Shown: positions 13,841-52,851 of the stretch, one piece after another
Numbering within the stretch: position 1 is the stretch's first letter
Layout: each line of letters begins with the position of its first letter
From: Halorubrum trapanicum
GTDB taxonomy: Archaea; Halobacteriota; Halobacteria; Halobacteriales; Haloferacaceae
NCBI RefSeq assembly: GCF_002355655.1
Contig: NZ_AP017569.1
Coordinates: 1,178,001 to 1,242,000, forward strand
Length of the DNA stretch: 64,000 bases
Direction: 5' to 3'
Made by a program: the position numbers and the translations under genes
Notes under the pieces: generated by a model
Database searches by the model: none
What the model saw: only the letters and a program-made list of their open reading frames with translations
What the model was told of the DNA's origin: nothing

Positions 13841-14030
13841 TTTCTGTGGCGACGAGAGCCGCACGAATAACACTTCTGACGCCCCACTCCTCTCGATCCC
13901 GCAGTGAATGAGACCCCGGGCCCGGCTCCGGTCAGCACAGGCGCGGAGACGATCCACGGCGGGAGTGAGTATCGCAGATCGATGGCGACGAAAACGTATT
14001 TAAATAGCCACGAGCGACGGCGACGAGGGG

Positions 14031-14420
14031 CTATAAAAAGGGGTGCGGTGGCGCGCCTGCGAGCGGCCGGAGCGAAGCGGAGGCCGCGAGCCAGCCCGCG
14101 AGGGACGCCGCGAACGCCCGCAGGGCGTGAGCGGCGAGGTTGGGGAGGCGTGAGGTGCTGTGCGGTCGCGGTCGGGCGGGACTCAAAGGGGCAGTCGCGA
14201 GGGCGAAGCACGCCGCAGCAAGCAGCGTGGCGCTACGCGCCACGGGCAGCCGGCGGCGAAGCCGCCGGCGACACCGCAGCGAGGGAGCGACAGCGACCGA
14301 GCGAGGAGCGCAGCAAGGCGCGCGAGCCGTCGCGGCTGGGGCTTTGGAGGTCGTCAGCGCAACCCGATCGAATATTTATAAACAGCAGACAGCAACACCG
14401 CGCTCCGACTTATAAACGAC
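14031..14420 (+). repeat. Structured dispersed repeat, copy A
   Basis: This is one of five copies of an intergenic family in the window. It begins at a TATA-like ctataaaaag (14031-14040) and has a first hairpin, then a second hairpin whose arms CGCCGC/GCGGCG flank variable bases. Next come the conserved block GGGAGGCGTGAGGTGC and ACTCAAAGGGGCAG, a variable domain with two strong local hairpins (CGTGGCG/CGCCACG and GCCGGCGGC/GCCGCCGGC), and finally CGGCTGGGGCTTTGGAGGT. The closing stem pairs 14192-14200 with 14330-14338, including one G-U. TATA-like boxes follow at 14373-14382 and 14409-14417. It sits between divergent genes; the remaining spacer (13841-14030, 14421-14567) shows no gene, only another TATA-like box near 13998. 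Confidence 0.8.
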
Positions 14421-14567
14421 AACACTCACCACGTACTACACGTACTCCCGCAATCGTTCAAAACGGTCTCTGTAGCGACCGGCCGTTCCGACGACGACCG
14501 CTCCCGAGTCGGGTCGCCGCGGATCCGCGGGAGAAGGTATTTGCGGCCGGCAGCCCGACTCGGGGGC

Positions 14568-16912: not shown

Positions 16913-17010
16913 TCCGGTCGACCCCGGGCCGATTTCGGCCCTTCTCTCGAGTTCACTCTTTGCCGGCCAGCCGTGCGTGGGCCCCGCTTCGACCGCCGGC
17001 CGCGCGTGTG

Positions 17011-17147
17011 CCTCGCGCCTCCCCAGCCTCGTCGCTGGCGCCATCGGCGCCAGCGACTCCCTCGCGCGTGCGACTCGCGCCCTGCGGGCGCTCGTCGGCA
17101 CGCGCCGAAGTCGGCGGTCGGTCCCGGCGCTCGCTCGCATTTAAATA
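17011..17147 (-). repeat. Structured dispersed repeat, truncated copy E
   Basis: On the minus strand this matches only the 5' half of the repeat family: TATA-like atttaaat (17139-17146), a first hairpin GAGCGCCCGCAGGGCGC, then CACGCGCGAGGGAGTC, a perfect 12-base-pair hairpin (17031-17042 with 17046-17057), and GAGGCTGGGGAGGCGCGAGG. The ACTCAAAGGGGCAGC block and the 3' half are absent. It lies between the converging L40e and metallo-beta-lactamase genes. Confidence 0.75.
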
Positions 17148-33324: not shown

Positions 33325-33720
33325 CGTTGAACGAGTTCAAAGCCCAGCCGTTCGTTTATAAATAGCTGACCGTAGATCGACGGTGAACGACTTCAAGGCC
33401 CCAGCCGGGAGGCGGGCGCACGCTCGCTGTCGTTCGAAAGGCGCGGAGCGCCTTTCGTGATGACGAGAGAGCTTCGCTCTCTCGAACCACGCTCCTCGTC
33501 GCCCGTTTCACTCGCTCCTGCGGTGCTTGCATCGCCTGCGCCCGCCTCCCGGCTGCCCCTTTGAGTCCCACCCCGCACGGCACCGCAGCCTCACGCCTCC
33601 CCAGCCTCGTCGGCCGCCCTCCGCGTTGCTCCGGGCGGCCGACTCCCTCGCGCGTGCTCCTCGCGGCCGCCGGGGGCGGCCGCTCGCAGGCGCGCGCCAC
33701 CGCGGTTCTATTTATAAATG
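33325..33720 (-). repeat. Structured dispersed repeat, copy B
   Basis: Read on the minus strand: TATA-like tttataaat (33711-33719), a first hairpin, CACGCGCGAGGGAGTC, a second hairpin with arms GTCGGCCGCC/GGCGGCCGAC, GAGGCTGGGGAGGCGTGAGG, GGGACTCAAAGGGGCAGCCG, a variable domain, CGGCTGGGGC, and two tandem 3' modules with a tttataaa box at 33356-33366. The main stem is 19 perfect base pairs (33537-33555 with 33402-33420), with a sequence different from copies C and D. Two further hairpins lie inside. It occupies the spacer between converging genes. Confidence 0.8.
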
Positions 33721-39224: not shown

Positions 39225-39519
39225 AAGATGGTCCGTCGGCTCTGCGGTGGTCTCGGGGTCGGTGCCGCCGCGGGGCGGTCGTGCCCCGTCGTCCTTATCG
39301 CCGGAGAATTTCGCGGCCAGCCGCCGTGAGGCGACTTCCTCTATCCTCCGAACGAACGCGTTCGTCTCGCGTCATTCGTACCCGTGCGGACTGTGTACAC
39401 ACGGATAAACTGTCGGGTCGCGTCAGGTTTGGCCGAGCGATCTTCGGCGTCGGCCCGCTTCGGCCGACGATCTCTCGCCCCGCCGACAGCGTTAGGGGAC
39501 TCCCCTGCGACCGGCTCGC

Positions 39520-40057: not shown

Positions 40058-40777
40058 TCACCCCAGCAGCGACCGCAGCGACCGCCGCCGGGTGCCGCAC
40101 TCGGCCGCGTAGTCGCAGGCGTCACACCGGTCGTCGTCGACGCGCGGCGGCGGGCCGTCGATCGACCGGGCCGCGCGGAGCGCCTTTCGATACGCCGCCT
40201 TCTTCCGGAGCGTCAGTCGCACCTCGCGGACCACTCCGACCGCGGGGTACTCGACCAGGGCGCGCTCGATCTCGCGTTCGCGCTCCCACGCCAGCGCCTT
40301 CGCGAGCCCGACCGCGCGGACCGCCTGCGGCTCCCACACGCCGTTTGCCGGCGGCTCGCCCGAGGAGACGAGGGTCGGAATCGGCGGCGGTGACGGCCCG
40401 GCATCGTCCGGTTCCTCTGTGCCCGCGGCCGGCTCCAACACCTTGTGAACGGTTCCATGGCAGTCCTTGCCCGAGAGGAATCCGCGCTCGGTCGCGGGGT
40501 CGACGAGGTCGCCGTACTCGTCGCGCTCGCGCAGTCGGGTCAGATTTCGGCGATAGTCGGTCGGCGACCGGTGGAGCGGAAGTTGCCGAAGGACCCGATC
40601 CGGCGCGTCGACCAGCTCGTCGTACCGGAACGCGAGGTCGATGCGCTCGCGCGCCTTCGGCGGGACGCTCCGCTCGTCGTCGCGCCGCACGTAGTAGAGC
40701 TGTCGGGGGCAGTACGCCGCGCGGGCCAGGTCGCTGAACGGGACGAGGGTCACGCGGCGGGCTGGCCGCGGCTTCAT
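40058..40777 (-). CDS. Solitary Cas4-like (Dna2/Cas4 family) protein, active site not recognisable
   Basis: This 239-residue protein has the Cas4 N-terminal signature (SDLARAAYCPRQLYYVRR) and C-terminal iron-sulphur cysteines (DRCDACDYAAECG; with the early Cys, four in total). The central part, where Cas4 should have GxxD and ExK nuclease motifs, reads FLSGKDCHGTVHKVLEP and no clear ExK pair is seen. No cas1, cas2 or array is in the window. It may therefore be an inactive relative that keeps the cluster. ATG 40777 sits at the edge of repeat copy C, with a tttataaa box straddling the start. Confidence 0.72.
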   Translation of the reverse strand: MKPRPARRVTLVPFSDLARAAYCPRQLYYVRRDDERSVPPKARERIDLAFRYDELVDAPDRVLRQLPLHRSPTDYRRNLTRLRERDEYGDLVDPATERGFLSGKDCHGTVHKVLEPAAGTEEPDDAGPSPPPIPTLVSSGEPPANGVWEPQAVRAVGLAKALAWEREREIERALVEYPAVGVVREVRLTLRKKAAYRKALRAARSIDGPPPRVDDDRCDACDYAAECGTRRRSLRSLLG

Positions 40778-41192
40778 TTATAAACAAACGACGGCGGTGC
40801 GGCGGCGCGCGCCTCCGAGCGCCCAGCGGGCGCGAGGAGCGTCGCGCGAGGGAGTCGGCCGACCGCAGGGAGGCCGACGAGGCTGGGGAGGTGTGAGGTG
40901 CGGTCGCTGTGCGGTCGGGTGGGACTCAAAGGGGCAGCCGCGAGGACGACGGCGCGCGACGCAAGCACCGCAGGGAGCGAGTGAAACGAGCGACCGAGGA
41001 GCGCAGCGAGCGCACCGAGTCCTCGCGGCTGGGGCTTTGGAGGTGTTCGTCGCCGATCTGCTGTCAGCTGCTTATAGCCGAGCGGCTGGAGCTTTGGAGG
41101 TGTTCGTCGCCGATCAGCAAACAGCAGTTTATAAATGAGCCACCGGAGCTTCGGCGGCGTTCATCGGCGATCCACGATCAACTACTTATAAA
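40776..41192 (+). repeat. Structured dispersed repeat, copy C
   Basis: TATA-like tttataaac (40777-40785) is followed by the first hairpin (GCGCCCAGCGGGCGC), GCGCGAGGGAGTC, a hairpin with arms GTCGGCC/GGCCGAC, GAGGCTGGGGAGG, and ACTCAAAGGGGCAGCCGC. The 12-bp main stem pairs 40935-40946 with 41020-41031 and includes an A-U pair where copy D has G-C. Three tandem 3' modules start at 41027, 41084 and about 41143, with boxes at 41071-41077, 41128-41136 and 41185-41192. The last box overlaps the stop of the gene ending at 41186. Confidence 0.8.
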
Positions 41193-41869
41193 GACACGTC
41201 TGTTTCGATGTCCTCGGTCGCCTCGCGGAGGCCGTCCTCGCGGGCGTCGCTCGCGAGCGACCCCTCGATGTCGGCGTCGGTGAGCAGGTCGCGGAACGCG
41301 TCGCGGAAGCGGTCGTTCGCCCGCGTGGAGGCGATGTCCGTCCGCGCGACGGCGGCGTACTTGGCAACTTCGTCCGGCTCGGCGTCCAGCTCCTCGGCGC
41401 ACTCGACGATCGAGTTCCCGGCCGCGGTGAGCCGCTTCAGGTCGGCGTACTCGAAGGGCGGGTCGGCCTCGTCGCCTTCCCCGTCCGCCTTCACGTCCCG
41501 GTCCGACTCGCGGACGAGGTGGAGGTCGAGCCGCGCCTTGCGGACGGTCTCGGCGTCAATTTCGTCGCGATCGACGTCGCTGTCGCCGTCTGTGTCGGCC
41601 AGCCCGTCGCGGATCGCCGCCGCGATCGCCGCGTCGCCCTCGTCCGCGAACCGGCCGCGCGCCACTCGGACGTAGGCGTCGTCGCCGAGCGGCGTCGAGA
41701 AGCCGTCCCGCTCGCGCATCGCGGCGACGAGGTCGCGGACCGCGTCGTCGACCGCCTCGTCGTCGCGGTCGACGAGGGTCCCCCGCTCCGCCTCTTGGCG
41801 TTCGGTGACCGTCTCCGAGCCGGTGGCGTCGACGAACAGGTCGCGGAGGTCGGCGGTCTTCTCGTCCAT
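41186..41869 (-). CDS. Conserved haloarchaeal protein (conditioned medium-induced protein 4-like)
   Basis: This 227-residue acidic, helix-rich protein starts MDEKTADLRDLFVDATG. By recollection, similar sequences carry the name conditioned medium-induced protein 4 in halophile annotations. The C-terminal half (KRLTAAGNSIVECAEELDAE) resembles a helix-turn-helix-like segment, but I cannot assign DNA binding. Start ATG 41869 was chosen over 41926. Its last codons overlap the end of repeat copy C. Confidence 0.75.
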   Translation of the reverse strand: MDEKTADLRDLFVDATGSETVTERQEAERGTLVDRDDEAVDDAVRDLVAAMRERDGFSTPLGDDAYVRVARGRFADEGDAAIAAAIRDGLADTDGDSDVDRDEIDAETVRKARLDLHLVRESDRDVKADGEGDEADPPFEYADLKRLTAAGNSIVECAEELDAEPDEVAKYAAVARTDIASTRANDRFRDAFRDLLTDADIEGSLASDAREDGLREATEDIETDVSL

Positions 41870-48972: not shown

Positions 48973-49016
48973 GCGGCCGCGAAACCGGATCTTCGATCTA
49001 CGTCTGCTCGACTCGG

Positions 49017-49440
49017 TTTTTAAGCGGTGGCGCGTGCCTGCGAGCGACCGCCCTCGGCGGCCGCGAGGAGCACGCGCGAGGGACGCGGTGAGCGAGAGGC
49101 GACCGCAGGGAGCCCGAGCGAACCGCGAGGCTGGGGAGGCGTGAGGTGCGGGTGCCGTGCGGGGCGGGTCTCAAAGGGGCAGCCGCGAGGGCGAAGCCTG
49201 ACGACGCAAGCACCGCAGGGAGCGTAGCGACCGAGGAGCGCAGCGAGTCACGCGAGCCCTCGCGGCTGGGGCTTTGGAGGTCTCCGCCGTCGAGACACAG
49301 CCGCCCATTTATAAGTAAAGGACTGGGGCTTTGGCGGTGTTGGCCGTCGATCCACAAACGCCCATTTATAAGCGAACGGCTGGAGATTTGGCCGTGTTCG
49401 TCGCCGAGGTGTAGTCGCTCATTTATAAGGGGCGGTCGTG
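49017..49440 (+). repeat. Structured dispersed repeat, copy D
   Basis: It begins with TATA-like tttttaag, then the first hairpin (GACCGCC/GGCGGCC), CACGCGCGAGGGAC, a hairpin with arms CGCGGT/ACCGCG, GAGGCTGGGGAGGCGTGAGG, CTCAAAGGGGCAGCCGC and CAAGCACCGCAGGGAGCG. The 12-bp main stem pairs 49180-49191 with 49257-49268. Three tandem modules begin at 49264, 49320 and 49378, each ending in ATTTATAAG (49307, 49364, 49421). It fills most of the 600-base spacer between the alcohol dehydrogenase and the small gene at 49575; nothing else is seen there. Confidence 0.85.
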
Positions 49441-49574
49441 GATTCCGCAGCCGTCGCCGGGCCAGTAGCCGCCGATGGGCATTCGGACGCACCGCAGACA
49501 GATCCGCTCAAACGTTCGTTTCCGACGGTATCGGCGTAACCTTTAGTACTCCCAAGTCATTGTCATCCGTTGTC

Positions 49575-49748
49575 ATGTGCCACCATTACGACGAGGCGCG
49601 CACGTGGACGGAGGTCAAGGCGCGTCACCGGTCCGAGGAGGCGGACGAGCTCGACGAAGCGCCCGACGTCGACGCGGTCGACGAGCCGGCGGACGAGACG
49701 GAGGAGCCCGAGCCCCCGGCGGAGCCGCGCGCCCCGGCCGACGACTGA
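49575..49748 (+). CDS. Small acidic protein MCHHYD
   Basis: This 57-residue protein begins MCHHYDEARTWTEVKAR and continues as a Glu/Asp/Pro-rich tail. The CHH motif might bind metal. A TATA-like ctttagtac lies about 25-30 bases before the ATG, which supports a real leaderless gene. I cannot name a family. Confidence 0.6.
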   Translation: MCHHYDEARTWTEVKARHRSEEADELDEAPDVDAVDEPADETEEPEPPAEPRAPADD

Positions 49749-49806
49749 CGCGGTCGGGGACGACCCCGCCTCGAACCCCGACTTTCTATCGCGTGTCGCT
49801 GTTCCG

Positions 49807-50012
49807 TGAGCGGCCGCGCCGCCCGCCGTCGGCCCCATCGCACTCATTTTCGGGCCGCTGGCCGTGCTGTACGGATTCGCTGCCGGGGTCGTGCTGTTCA
49901 GGGCGGGCTACTGGTTCGCACGCCCTACCCCGAACGCGTATGCTCGGGCAGCCCGGGGTGTCGGATTCGTGATAGATCGCGGAGGTGACTCATCGATCGG
50001 GGTTCGGCTCAG
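49807..50012 (+). pseudogene. Possible membrane-protein remnant at IS edge
   Basis: An open frame with no normal start reads as a hydrophobic helix (IALIFGPLAVLYGFAAGVVL) and a basic stop-transfer stretch, then enters the left end of the IS element. It looks like the start-less remainder of a small membrane protein, possibly cut by the insertion. Low certainty; it may be spurious. Confidence 0.3.
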
Positions 50013-50030
50013 CATGATTCGAGGTGGAGC

Positions 50031-50073
50031 CTCCGACCTCAAGGAGCGAGAGCAGCGAGCGAGTAGGTCGGAG
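50031..50073 (+). repeat. Left-end hairpin of IS element
   Basis: A 9-bp stem (50031-50039 and 50065-50073) encloses a purine-rich loop of about 25 bases. Subterminal hairpins like this are what TnpA recognises in this family. Confidence 0.75.
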
Positions 50074-50160
50074 AGGAAACCGACAACGCACGACGCAACC
50101 GCACGACGGTAGCTACCTGACTCCCCAATAAATAAGTACCGTTAGATAGTAATCTGAAAC

Positions 50161-51405
50161 ATGGAGGTGCGTCGAACTGCGCCGGTCAAACTTGTTGTTC
50201 CCGACAAGCGGTACGACGACCTCCACGAATCCGCGCGACAGTTCCTTCACTGTGCGAATCGTGCCGCTGAATTCTGTTGGGACGACGACTCCTACGCCAA
50301 CTGCGTTACGGCGAACTCGACCGCACGGGACGCGCTCTACGAACAACTACGAGAGGAAACTGATCTTACTGCGAACCTCGTTCAAGCGGCTATCCGTCGT
50401 GCCGTCCAAGCGACGAAAGGATGCGTCGAACGGTGGAAACAGGGCAAGCGGGTGAGCCAGCCGGAGTTCACGTCGTGGAGCATGGTCTACGACAAGCGAA
50501 GCGCGACGTTCTACCGCGACCGTGTGTCTCTTTCGACCGTCAACGGGCGCGTCGAGTGCGACTTTGAACTTCCGGCGGATAGCCCGACTCCCTACGAACA
50601 GTACGTTCTCTCGGAGGACTACGAGTTCCGGGCGAGCACACTGCAATACGACAAGGCAACTGACGAGTTCTATTTCCACATCACGACGCGGAAGTACGAT
50701 ACCGACGAATCCGAGGTTTCGGAAGATACCGAGCACCAAACAGTCCTCGGTATCGACCTCGGCGTCAACAGCCTCGCAGTCGCTTCGACCGGCACGTTCT
50801 GGCAGGGCGACGAATACGATCACTGGTGCCGTGAATTCGAGAAGCGGCGTGGTGAGATGCAACAGCGCGGGACGCAACCCGCGCACAACGCCCTGCTTCG
50901 CCTCGGAAAGCGCGAAGAAGCGTGGCGGAAGCAGTACATCCACACGGTTGCCAATGAGCTCGTTTCGGAAGCCATCGAACACGACTGCGACGTAATCGTG
51001 TTCGAGGAGTTAACCGACATCCGCGAGCGGCTCCCGCAGGCGAAATGGCACCACGTGTGGGCGTTCCGACGCCTGTCCGAGTACGTCTCCTACAAGGCAC
51101 CAGAGCAGGGCGTCTCCGTGGAGCAAGTCGAGCCGAACCACACGTCCCAGCGCTGTTCTCGGACGGATTGTGGGTTCACGCACGAAGCGAACCGTGACGG
51201 CGAACACTTCGAGTGCCAGAAATGCGGCTATGAGGTCAACGCGGATTACAACGCGGCGAAGAATATCGGGGTACGGTATGCCCGAAAGCGGAAACACAGA
51301 CTCCGCTCCTCGCCCAAGTCGGGGAGCGGAGACGCACCAGTAGACGTGCGTGTAAATGGTGGGACGTTGAACGGCAAGAGTCACCAGTCCATTGCTGGCG
51401 ACTGA
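50161..51405 (+). CDS. tnpB: TnpB RNA-guided nuclease-family protein
   Basis: This 414-residue protein has an N-terminal helix-rich wedge, then a RuvC-like core with Asp in GIDLGVNSLAVAS, Glu in VIVFEELTDIRE and the last Asp in NADYNAAKNIGVRY. A four-Cys zinc finger (CSRTDCGF ... CQKCGY) lies between the last two. All catalytic residues are kept, so it could be an active omega-RNA-guided DNA endonuclease. In other haloarchaea the 3' end of tnpB is covered by a sense overlapping RNA. Codon use is less GC-biased than the neighbours, in keeping with transfer. Confidence 0.95.
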   Translation: MEVRRTAPVKLVVPDKRYDDLHESARQFLHCANRAAEFCWDDDSYANCVTANSTARDALYEQLREETDLTANLVQAAIRRAVQATKGCVERWKQGKRVSQPEFTSWSMVYDKRSATFYRDRVSLSTVNGRVECDFELPADSPTPYEQYVLSEDYEFRASTLQYDKATDEFYFHITTRKYDTDESEVSEDTEHQTVLGIDLGVNSLAVASTGTFWQGDEYDHWCREFEKRRGEMQQRGTQPAHNALLRLGKREEAWRKQYIHTVANELVSEAIEHDCDVIVFEELTDIRERLPQAKWHHVWAFRRLSEYVSYKAPEQGVSVEQVEPNHTSQRCSRTDCGFTHEANRDGEHFECQKCGYEVNADYNAAKNIGVRYARKRKHRLRSSPKSGSGDAPVDVRVNGGTLNGKSHQSIAGD

Positions 51406-51485
51406 GCGCTGGGAGTCCACATCAAAGCCCTACCCTCAACGAGCGAACCCCGTATGGGGCGAGCGAAGTAGGGTAGGGTAGTTTA
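51340..51485 (+). ncRNA. Candidate omega RNA/sense-overlapping RNA from tnpB 3' end
   Basis: By analogy with known TnpB systems, the guide RNA comes from the last part of tnpB and the right end. The strongest structure is the 51428-51478 hairpin with an inner CCCC/GGGG stem (51448-51451 with 51456-51459). Any guide would begin just past the right end, near 51485. The 5' boundary given is approximate. Confidence 0.5.
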
Positions 51486-52241
51486 CTCGCGGAGCAGGTA
51501 GCGGAACGCGCGCAGGTGGTTCGATCCGCTCTCGGTGACGGAAAGGTATTGGTACTTGGAGTGTTTCTCGACCTCGAGGAACCCGCGGCTCTCAAGCGGC
51601 TCGACGACGTGCGTGTTGAGCCGCCGGTAGTACCCGCGTTTCGGGTTCTGAACCCCATCGGTGTCGTAGCGCTCGACGAAAGGGAGGCCTTCCCGGCGGC
51701 CGTAGTCGATGAGCTCTCTCTTGGTGACGGGCTGGTTCCGTTCGACGTACGCGAGGACGGCGACGCGTTCGGCGTTCGGCTCCTCGATCGGGTACTTCGG
51801 GAGTGTCTCCGGTGGCTTCGCGCCCGAGGCCACCGGTCGCTCCTCGCCGCCCGCGTACTCCTCCGCGTGGACGTAGTACGGGATCGCGCCGGTGACCATA
51901 CAGGCGATCATCCCGCCGATCGCGGTCACCTTCGACCCCGACGCGAGGTTCACGTAGACGTTGTGGTCACGGAGACGGTTCGAGATCTCGGCGATCGTCC
52001 CGAGCGAACTGAAGAGATTGAAGATGTCGCACTCGACGGTCTCGGTCCGAATCCCTTCGTCTCGAACGCGTTGACGGGCCGTCTCGTGGTATGACGGTCG
52101 GTCGACGCCCTCTTTGTCGGCGTCGGGTTCGAGGAGGATCACCTCGTCGGCGTTCCCGTCGACGACCGGACGGACGATCCGGTCCAATTCGTATCCCAGC
52201 GGAACGATATGGACACGTTTCGGCACGTCGAGATCGTTCAT
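51483..52241 (-). CDS. HFX_2341 (DUF6293)-type CARF-like transcriptional regulator
   Basis: This 252-residue protein has a Rossmann-like N-terminal domain (RVHIVPLGYELDRIVRPV, then YVNLASGSKVTAIGGMIACM, a CARF-type ligand-loop signature) and a C-terminal winged helix (PVTKRELIDYGRR ... YRRLNTHVVEPLESRGF). It probably senses a nucleotide-type ligand and binds DNA. The TAA stop at 51483-51485 overlaps the TTTAC at the IS right end, so the insertion left the gene intact. No CRISPR genes are nearby. Confidence 0.82.
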   Translation of the reverse strand: MNDLDVPKRVHIVPLGYELDRIVRPVVDGNADEVILLEPDADKEGVDRPSYHETARQRVRDEGIRTETVECDIFNLFSSLGTIAEISNRLRDHNVYVNLASGSKVTAIGGMIACMVTGAIPYYVHAEEYAGGEERPVASGAKPPETLPKYPIEEPNAERVAVLAYVERNQPVTKRELIDYGRREGLPFVERYDTDGVQNPKRGYYRRLNTHVVEPLESRGFLEVEKHSKYQYLSVTESGSNHLRAFRYLLRE

Positions 52242-52851
52242 ATATCAGCTGATTATCGGGACGATATTGACGATTATGATCACATTGTCGTTTGTTTTGA
52301 CTGTGTCAGCGTAATTCATATCCGACCGAGGGCGTTGTATCCGATCGCCGACGAAGGTCCCCGCAGACGTGTGTTCTCCCCCTCTACCCGAACAACGCGG
52401 GTCGGCGTTCCGTCGGTCGCCCCGTTCGGCCCTCCCCCCCGTCTCGGTGACCGCCGGTTTCGTCGCCTGAGACCTCGTCGGCGAACGCAGTATTCTTTTC
52501 ACGGTCGTCCGGCCCACGTCCGACCTCGGCGACCCCGATCCGCCCTCCGGTTGCCACCGTGCCGAGTCCGCCAGATCGCGACGAGGACATGATGCGCTCG
52601 GCGGCCGACAGCGACGCCGCCGAGGTGTTCCTCGACTGAGGGACGCGGTGGCGCCGAACGGCAAGCCGGTCGCCCGCGAGCCGCTGGTCGCGGCCGCCCG
52701 TGAAGGGGACTGGGGCGGCACGGTGTTGAGCTTCCGGAAGAACGGCATCGACACGCGGTGGTGGTACGAGGACCCGATCTCCGTCGGCGGCGAGGCAGGC
52801 GCACAGTGTCGATCGCGTCCCGGACCTCATTTCCGAACCGGCCGCGACCGA
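52242..52851. other. 610-base gap with decayed coding traces
   Basis: The first 100 bases are AT-rich promoter DNA for the regulator gene. From about 52560 two frames on the plus strand read like coding sequence: DEDMMRSAADSDAAEVFLD ending at a TGA at 52636, and, in another frame, GKPVAREPLVAAAREGDWGG then KNGIDTRWWYEDPIS. They may be halves of one frameshifted gene whose family I cannot name. No intact gene is supported. Confidence 0.4.

Follow-up and report, generated by a model that had tools for sequence, protein, structure and literature searches.

The array of tandem 57-bp modules analyzed here is the 3' end of an interspersed element of ~350-500 bp, present in about 170 copies in the genome of Halorubrum trapanicum, and this high-copy, non-coding element is probably non-autonomous and mobile. 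The window, a stretch of 64,000 nucleotides (C1:1178001-1242000 of the 3.08 Mb genome), contains several copies (Table 1), and 106 of the ~170 copies, taken from stretches holding them, were studied in detail. Demonstrated properties of the element are its copy number, the covariation of its helix, its intergenic and orientation-neutral placement, its presence or absence at sites in different species, the change of its module number and its class-wide relatives.

Table 1. Element copies in the window, their parts and an adjoining gene
Feature	Position	Strand	Remarks
Copy D, body (P1-P4 hairpins) and three 57-bp modules	49018..49440	+	CM match 49129-49277, 144.9 bits
Copy D, core	49170..49190	+	CTCAAAGGGGCAGCCGCGAGG; 5' strand of helix P4
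Copy D, module 1	49264..49320	+	Starts with GGCTGGGGCTTTGG; TTTATAA 49308-49314; initial ~20 nt form the 3' strand of helix P4
Copy D, module 2	49321..49377	+	Starts with GACTGGGGCTTTGG; TTTATAA 49365-49371
Copy D, module 3	49378..49434	+	Starts with GGCTGGAGATTTGG; TTTATAA 49422-49428
Copy C, three modules (41027, 41084, 41141)	40777..41192	+	CM match 166 bits
Copy B, one full and one partial module	33345..33717	-	Two extra inserted hairpins
Element copy with one module	14000..14455	+	CM match
Truncated copy retaining the left half alone (P1-P3 and GAGGCTGGGGAGG), without P4 or modules	16990..17110	-	CM match 15 bits
IS1341-type TnpB (OrfB_IS605 / Cas12f1-like TNB), adjoins copy D	50161..51405	+

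Tandem modules and the element that carries them

A preliminary description of this DNA had reported 57-base tandem modules with TTTATAA at the 3' end of the repeats, and this organization is confirmed in copy D, where exact boxes follow one another at a spacing of 57 throughout. The reported first and third module starts in copy D stand, while the second is displaced by one base from the reported 49320. The periods, given as 56-59, are exactly 57 in copy D and overwhelmingly 57 overall; TRF returned a period of 57 for both copy D and copy C, and a CTTCGG subfamily has module periods of 63, 66 and 69. Copy C has three modules, as described, the third being degenerate and starting slightly before the reported position of about 41143, and in copy B, credited with at least two modules, the second is incomplete. 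The statement that each box is a good TATA element holds for copy D and only partly for copy C, whose boxes are uneven (GCTTATAGC at 41071, TTTATAA at 41128 and CTTATAAA at 41185).

The last of these boxes overlaps the stop codon of the gene at 41186-41869 (-), and the gene at 40058-40753 (-) has its predicted GTG start 24-25 nt from the 5' TTTATAA of copy C (40777). The latter gene has a weak match to a Cas4-like nuclease domain, just under the Pfam cut-off, and the 5' end of copy C falls on its putative TATA box.

In the whole genome, a 16-mer from the module start has 312 matches at no more than 2 mismatches, compared with 54 for the reversed pattern, and the body core upstream of the modules has 174 compared with 10, numbers well above what chance would give. 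Relative to the core, copies are similar from about -150/-240 on one side to about +160/+330 on the other. One unit is present in 40 of the 106 copies, two in 37, three in 22, and four to six in 7; arrays like that of copy D, whose absence elsewhere in the genome had been named as grounds for giving up the original observation, thus recur as two or more modules in 66 of the 106. Open frames cross some modules in copies D and C, but a coding reading of the modules, whose periods over all copies are 57, 63, 66 and 69, was rejected on account of interrupting TAA/TAG stops and 8-nt length differences between the core and module 1.

Fold of the element and covariation of its helices

The element body consists of a chain of hairpins, P1-P3, and a long main helix, P4, in which CAAAG-GGG-CAGYCGNGAGG is paired with CCTCNCGRCTG-GGG-CTTTG, where the first module begins; the core CTCAAAGGGGCAGYCGNGAGG is thus paired with the first-unit start CCTCNCGRCTGGGGCTTTGG. 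A conserved GGG/GGG internal loop, visible in the sequences, breaks up this helix. The first module provides the 3' strand of P4, and the later modules repeat GRCTGGGGCTTTGG without the CCTCGCG foot. Because the later units repeat the P4 strand, the conserved heart of the module is this helix strand and not the TATA-like box: the GGGGCTTT positions carry 1.3-2.0 bits of information in first units and 1.1-1.8 bits in later ones, compared with roughly 0.5-1.2 bits around the box.

Among the copies in this genome, the Y-R position of P4 is CG in 51, TA in 29, TG in 21 and CA in 1, and one CAAAG/CTTTG pair is AT in 88 and GC in 18, with no intermediates. The structure was tested on 38 sequences, drawn from Halorubrum and from two other families: 97% of cells are paired, both sides have changed in 24 of the 32 helix pairs, and the covariation score is 0.489, compared with 0.156 for shuffled and 0.05-0.07 for slid versions. 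G.U pairs exceed A.C pairs on the + strand, by 29 to 9 in the three-family alignment (A3) and by 35 to 8 in the 106 own copies, an excess that is carried mainly by a few pairs in related sequences. The inner motif GACGYAAGCACCGCAGGGAGC...GAGGAGCGCAGCGAG is conserved across families.

Extra optional hairpins occur at the same points of the body in many copies (L033-L067, and copies A and B of the window), for example CGAGAGCGAAGCTCTCG... and GTTCCCGCGAGCG...GGAAGTCGCAGCCCGCGCAGCGA, and look as if they were cassettes exchanged between copies. The body region covering A3 columns 92-148 and the P3 loops has many 2-bp Watson-Crick steps with GA/GA between them (CGAG), and GCGAAGC and GGA/GGA motifs are abundant there as well. 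Motifs of the CGAG, GCGAAGC and GGA/GGA types are very stable in hairpins of single-stranded DNA.

The P2 and P3 hairpins differ as whole cassettes, both between copies and between orthologous copies, and G.U pairs are nearly absent from them: 5 of 656 pairs in 53 distinct P3 stems and, likewise, <2% in 44 distinct P2 stems. Maintenance by template switching gives near-perfect Watson-Crick arms that change together (PMC8794818), and the pattern in P2 and P3 points to such DNA-level palindrome maintenance, being what it would predict. The likeness lies in the near-perfect arms and their joint change, while the published hairpins were described for RNA genes generally and not for an archaeal repeat family (PMC8794818).

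Placement, turnover of sites and the TTATAA box

None of the 94 testable copies overlaps a predicted gene, and the placement is intergenic. Copies are enriched between convergent genes, where 40 of 108 gaps hold one, compared with 46 of 301 tandem gaps and 8 of 84 divergent ones (chi-square p=3e-7); only the relative rates matter here, since genes were predicted by a codon-based caller in stretches chosen for holding copies. In tandem gaps, 22 copies have the same orientation as the genes and 24 the opposite one, i.e. orientation is neutral, and no replication-strand bias of copies was seen.

The element was found in all 22 other genomes of the genus that were searched. A covariance model of the P4 domain detected relatives in 87 of 116 genomes of the class, representing 36 of 46 genera, with one to at least 25 copies per matching genome; about 29 of the 116 gave no match to this model. 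Tandem GGGGCTTT modules occur in other families too, without TTATAA. In genus g44 the elements form inverted pairs with palindromic ends GAACAGCGTGAAAGCCCC/GGGGCTTTCACGCTGTTC; inverted pairs with perfect palindromic ends, REPIN/MITE-like in appearance, were seen at L151, L163, L169 and L170 (G114/G104).

Site occupancy was set against that of G007, the closest relative (about 88% in this region), in which about 12 of 37 compared sites hold the element in the same orientation and roughly two thirds are unoccupied; a few sites hold remnants. Some of the empty sites keep both flanks intact, as at 1874492, where 360 bp here correspond to 12 bp there; loss in the relative, rather than lack of insertion, could be the cause of such absences. 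At site 455041 the G007 element has the opposite orientation. Copy C is common to both genomes, and in two further genomes (G008 and G013) this gap holds an element facing the other way. Three other apparent flips (258579, 2649967 and 1728070) were discounted, the G007 element being off the aligned site or the match weak. Neighboring module units are near identical, and module number, which the preliminary description had proposed to compare between strains, differs at 9 of 13 shared sites. Copy D lies inside a ~3.9 kb segment absent from G007 (~48975-52850), which also carries the adjoining tnpB gene and a gene for an HFX_2341/DUF6293-type regulator (51483-52241, -).

The box is largely Halorubrum-specific: of 102 own copies, 78 have TTTATAA, and it is missing from all 15 copies of other families, in which the modules retain GGGGCTTT. 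The position of TTATAA is fixed within the units (82 of 106 first units, 80 of 105 later ones), and about 40% of copies have it 9-20 nt upstream of the body; in 48 kb of intergenic DNA free of elements it occurs 8 times. Elements are often flanked by TTATAA/TTTATAA at both ends. A single TTTATAA is present at each of the empty G007 sites 442366 and 2788522, and a single TTATA at 1874492, the expected single box being seen at only 2-3 of about 9 empty sites, most of which have diverged flanks. Rather than forming a row of promoters, the boxes probably represent insertion sites or element ends. A target duplication of TTATAA is suggested by these data, and the flanking TTATAA could instead be part of the element.

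Origin of the array and relation to known repeats

The preliminary description had offered, as one of two readings, repeated integration or duplication of the 3' end of the element. This proposal is largely supported, because the modules repeat the 3' strand, the units are near identical, their number varies and TTATAA is found at both ends. A non-autonomous hairpin element would insert at TTATAA as its target and would be actively transposed. The terminal unit would at first have been duplicated in tandem, and modules 2 to n, as its duplicates, may then multiply or shrink by recombination or slippage; new units may come from repeated insertion events or, following a single insertion, from unequal recombination. 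The element is too short for a transposase, high in copy number and interspersed, in the manner of MITEs. By behavior it is most likely MITE/PATE/REPIN-like, a likeness that does not extend to demonstrated descent. Strong class-wide conservation of the helix exceeds what a plain MITE needs and counts against this explanation.

No mobilizing enzyme was found among the Y1 TnpA genes examined. The single Y1 transposase gene of this genome, at 683.9 kb and about 2.3 kb from the nearest element copy, has flanks without the repeat; core, module and inner motif are absent within ~1.5 kb of flank at five Y1 TnpA loci, and a genome with at least 31 covariance-model matches (G114) gave no Y1 match. An origin from IS200/IS605, as an IS605-derived PATE, was consequently rejected, and filing the element with the PATEs is not supported. 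TIR-like ends were found in one Halorubrum subfamily, with no matching transposon. The tnpB gene next to copy D showed no sequence link to the element.

That the element is instead a functional structured RNA, a class-wide ncRNA family in many copies with the modules as alternative P4 partners or RNA 3' ends and transcription driven by the 5' TTATAA, is possible but unlikely. The covarying secondary structure by which structured ncRNAs are recognized is present across three families, the excess of G.U over A.C favors an RNA of the + strand, and the inner motif is kept across families; however, most of this excess comes from few pairs and may be inherited, and the rarity of G.U in the local hairpins agrees with DNA-level palindrome maintenance, e.g. 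by template switching (PMC8794818). Moreover, a quarter of the class genomes have no match, over half of the sites compared with G007 are not conserved there, and TTATAA is at a fixed offset upstream of the body only in a minority of copies. Rfam has no family or relative of the element and gave no gathering-level match in it. A more specific model, in which a new RNA family extends across Halobacteria and the tandem 3' modules, as alternative P4 strands, would give each of the ~170 Halorubrum copies an RNA switch or processing site of variable length, is rather doubtful. The window also contains a leuA-Halobacteria cis-regulatory RNA (RF03001) at 39303-39355 (-), with 73.4 bits.

The other original reading, a row of promoters, is not supported, as the boxes are not at promoter distance from the flanking genes, and we consider it very unlikely. 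TTTATAA does resemble the haloarchaeal TATA element, the 5' box of copy C is suitably close to a predicted start, and intergenic repeats of 56-58 bp in halovirus HF2 have promoter activity (PMC8707807). Yet TTATAA lies about 22-32 nt upstream of only 1 of 32 predicted gene starts facing the 5' end of an element and 1 of 30 facing the 3' end, the divergent gaps, where promoters lie, are avoided, the box is missing from homologous elements outside the genus, and there is no orientation bias toward downstream genes. Such promoter avoidance also explains the gap skew that, together with stable hairpins, would speak for a BIME-like structural or terminator element kept between convergent genes for termination or chromosome organization. 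Many copies lie in tandem gaps without orientation preference, occupancy changes between sister species and a conserved T-rich tract is lacking, which makes this function highly improbable.

Among the open-access papers searched, both for interspersed repeats in haloarchaea and for the core sequence, only the Haloquadratum MITE/PATE/SMR repeats and HF2 were returned, and no description of the present element. The PATEs and SMRs of Haloquadratum walsbyi are non-coding, transposase-free, high-copy mobile repeats with palindromes and strain-specific insertions, including "SwitchRepeats", in which one site holds the element in opposite orientation; the mobilization of SMRs is given there as unknown (PMC3119063). 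The present element resembles them in the orientation switch at one site, the lack of a transposase and the palindromes. PATEs carry the near-terminal palindromes of IS605-type transposons, while the element matches no examined Y1 TnpA flanks, and SMR-A, unlike the element, is ~110 bp long, has terminal inverted repeats and targets other mobile elements; the tandem 57-bp tails are a feature of the element that does not appear in the portion of the PATE/SMR description consulted (PMC3119063). With REPINs, the RAYT-associated REP doublets, the element shares interspersed intergenic hairpins and, in g44, inverted pairs, and tandem arrays of REP units are known (PMC3116915). Its body is far larger and structured, it is archaeal, no linked RAYT was found, and the Halorubrum elements are single and asymmetric, unlike the doublets in g44. 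The class I intergenic repeats of HF2, which are reporter-tested promoters in the viral genome, are similar, as compared by description, in length (56-58 bp) and in AT-rich boxes, and come from a virus of Halorubrum (PMC8707807); the modules of the element differ in repeating a helix strand of a longer element.

A single repeat family seems to take up much of the large intergenic space between convergent genes in Halorubrum. Its relatives occur in three quarters of the sampled haloarchaeal genomes, yet without an Rfam family or a located description. In annotation, the TTTATAA boxes should not be taken for promoters, nor the chance reading frames for genes. With hairpins that change as entire, near-perfect Watson-Crick cassettes, the element provides a case in which maintenance of palindromes at the DNA level can be tested against selection on RNA.
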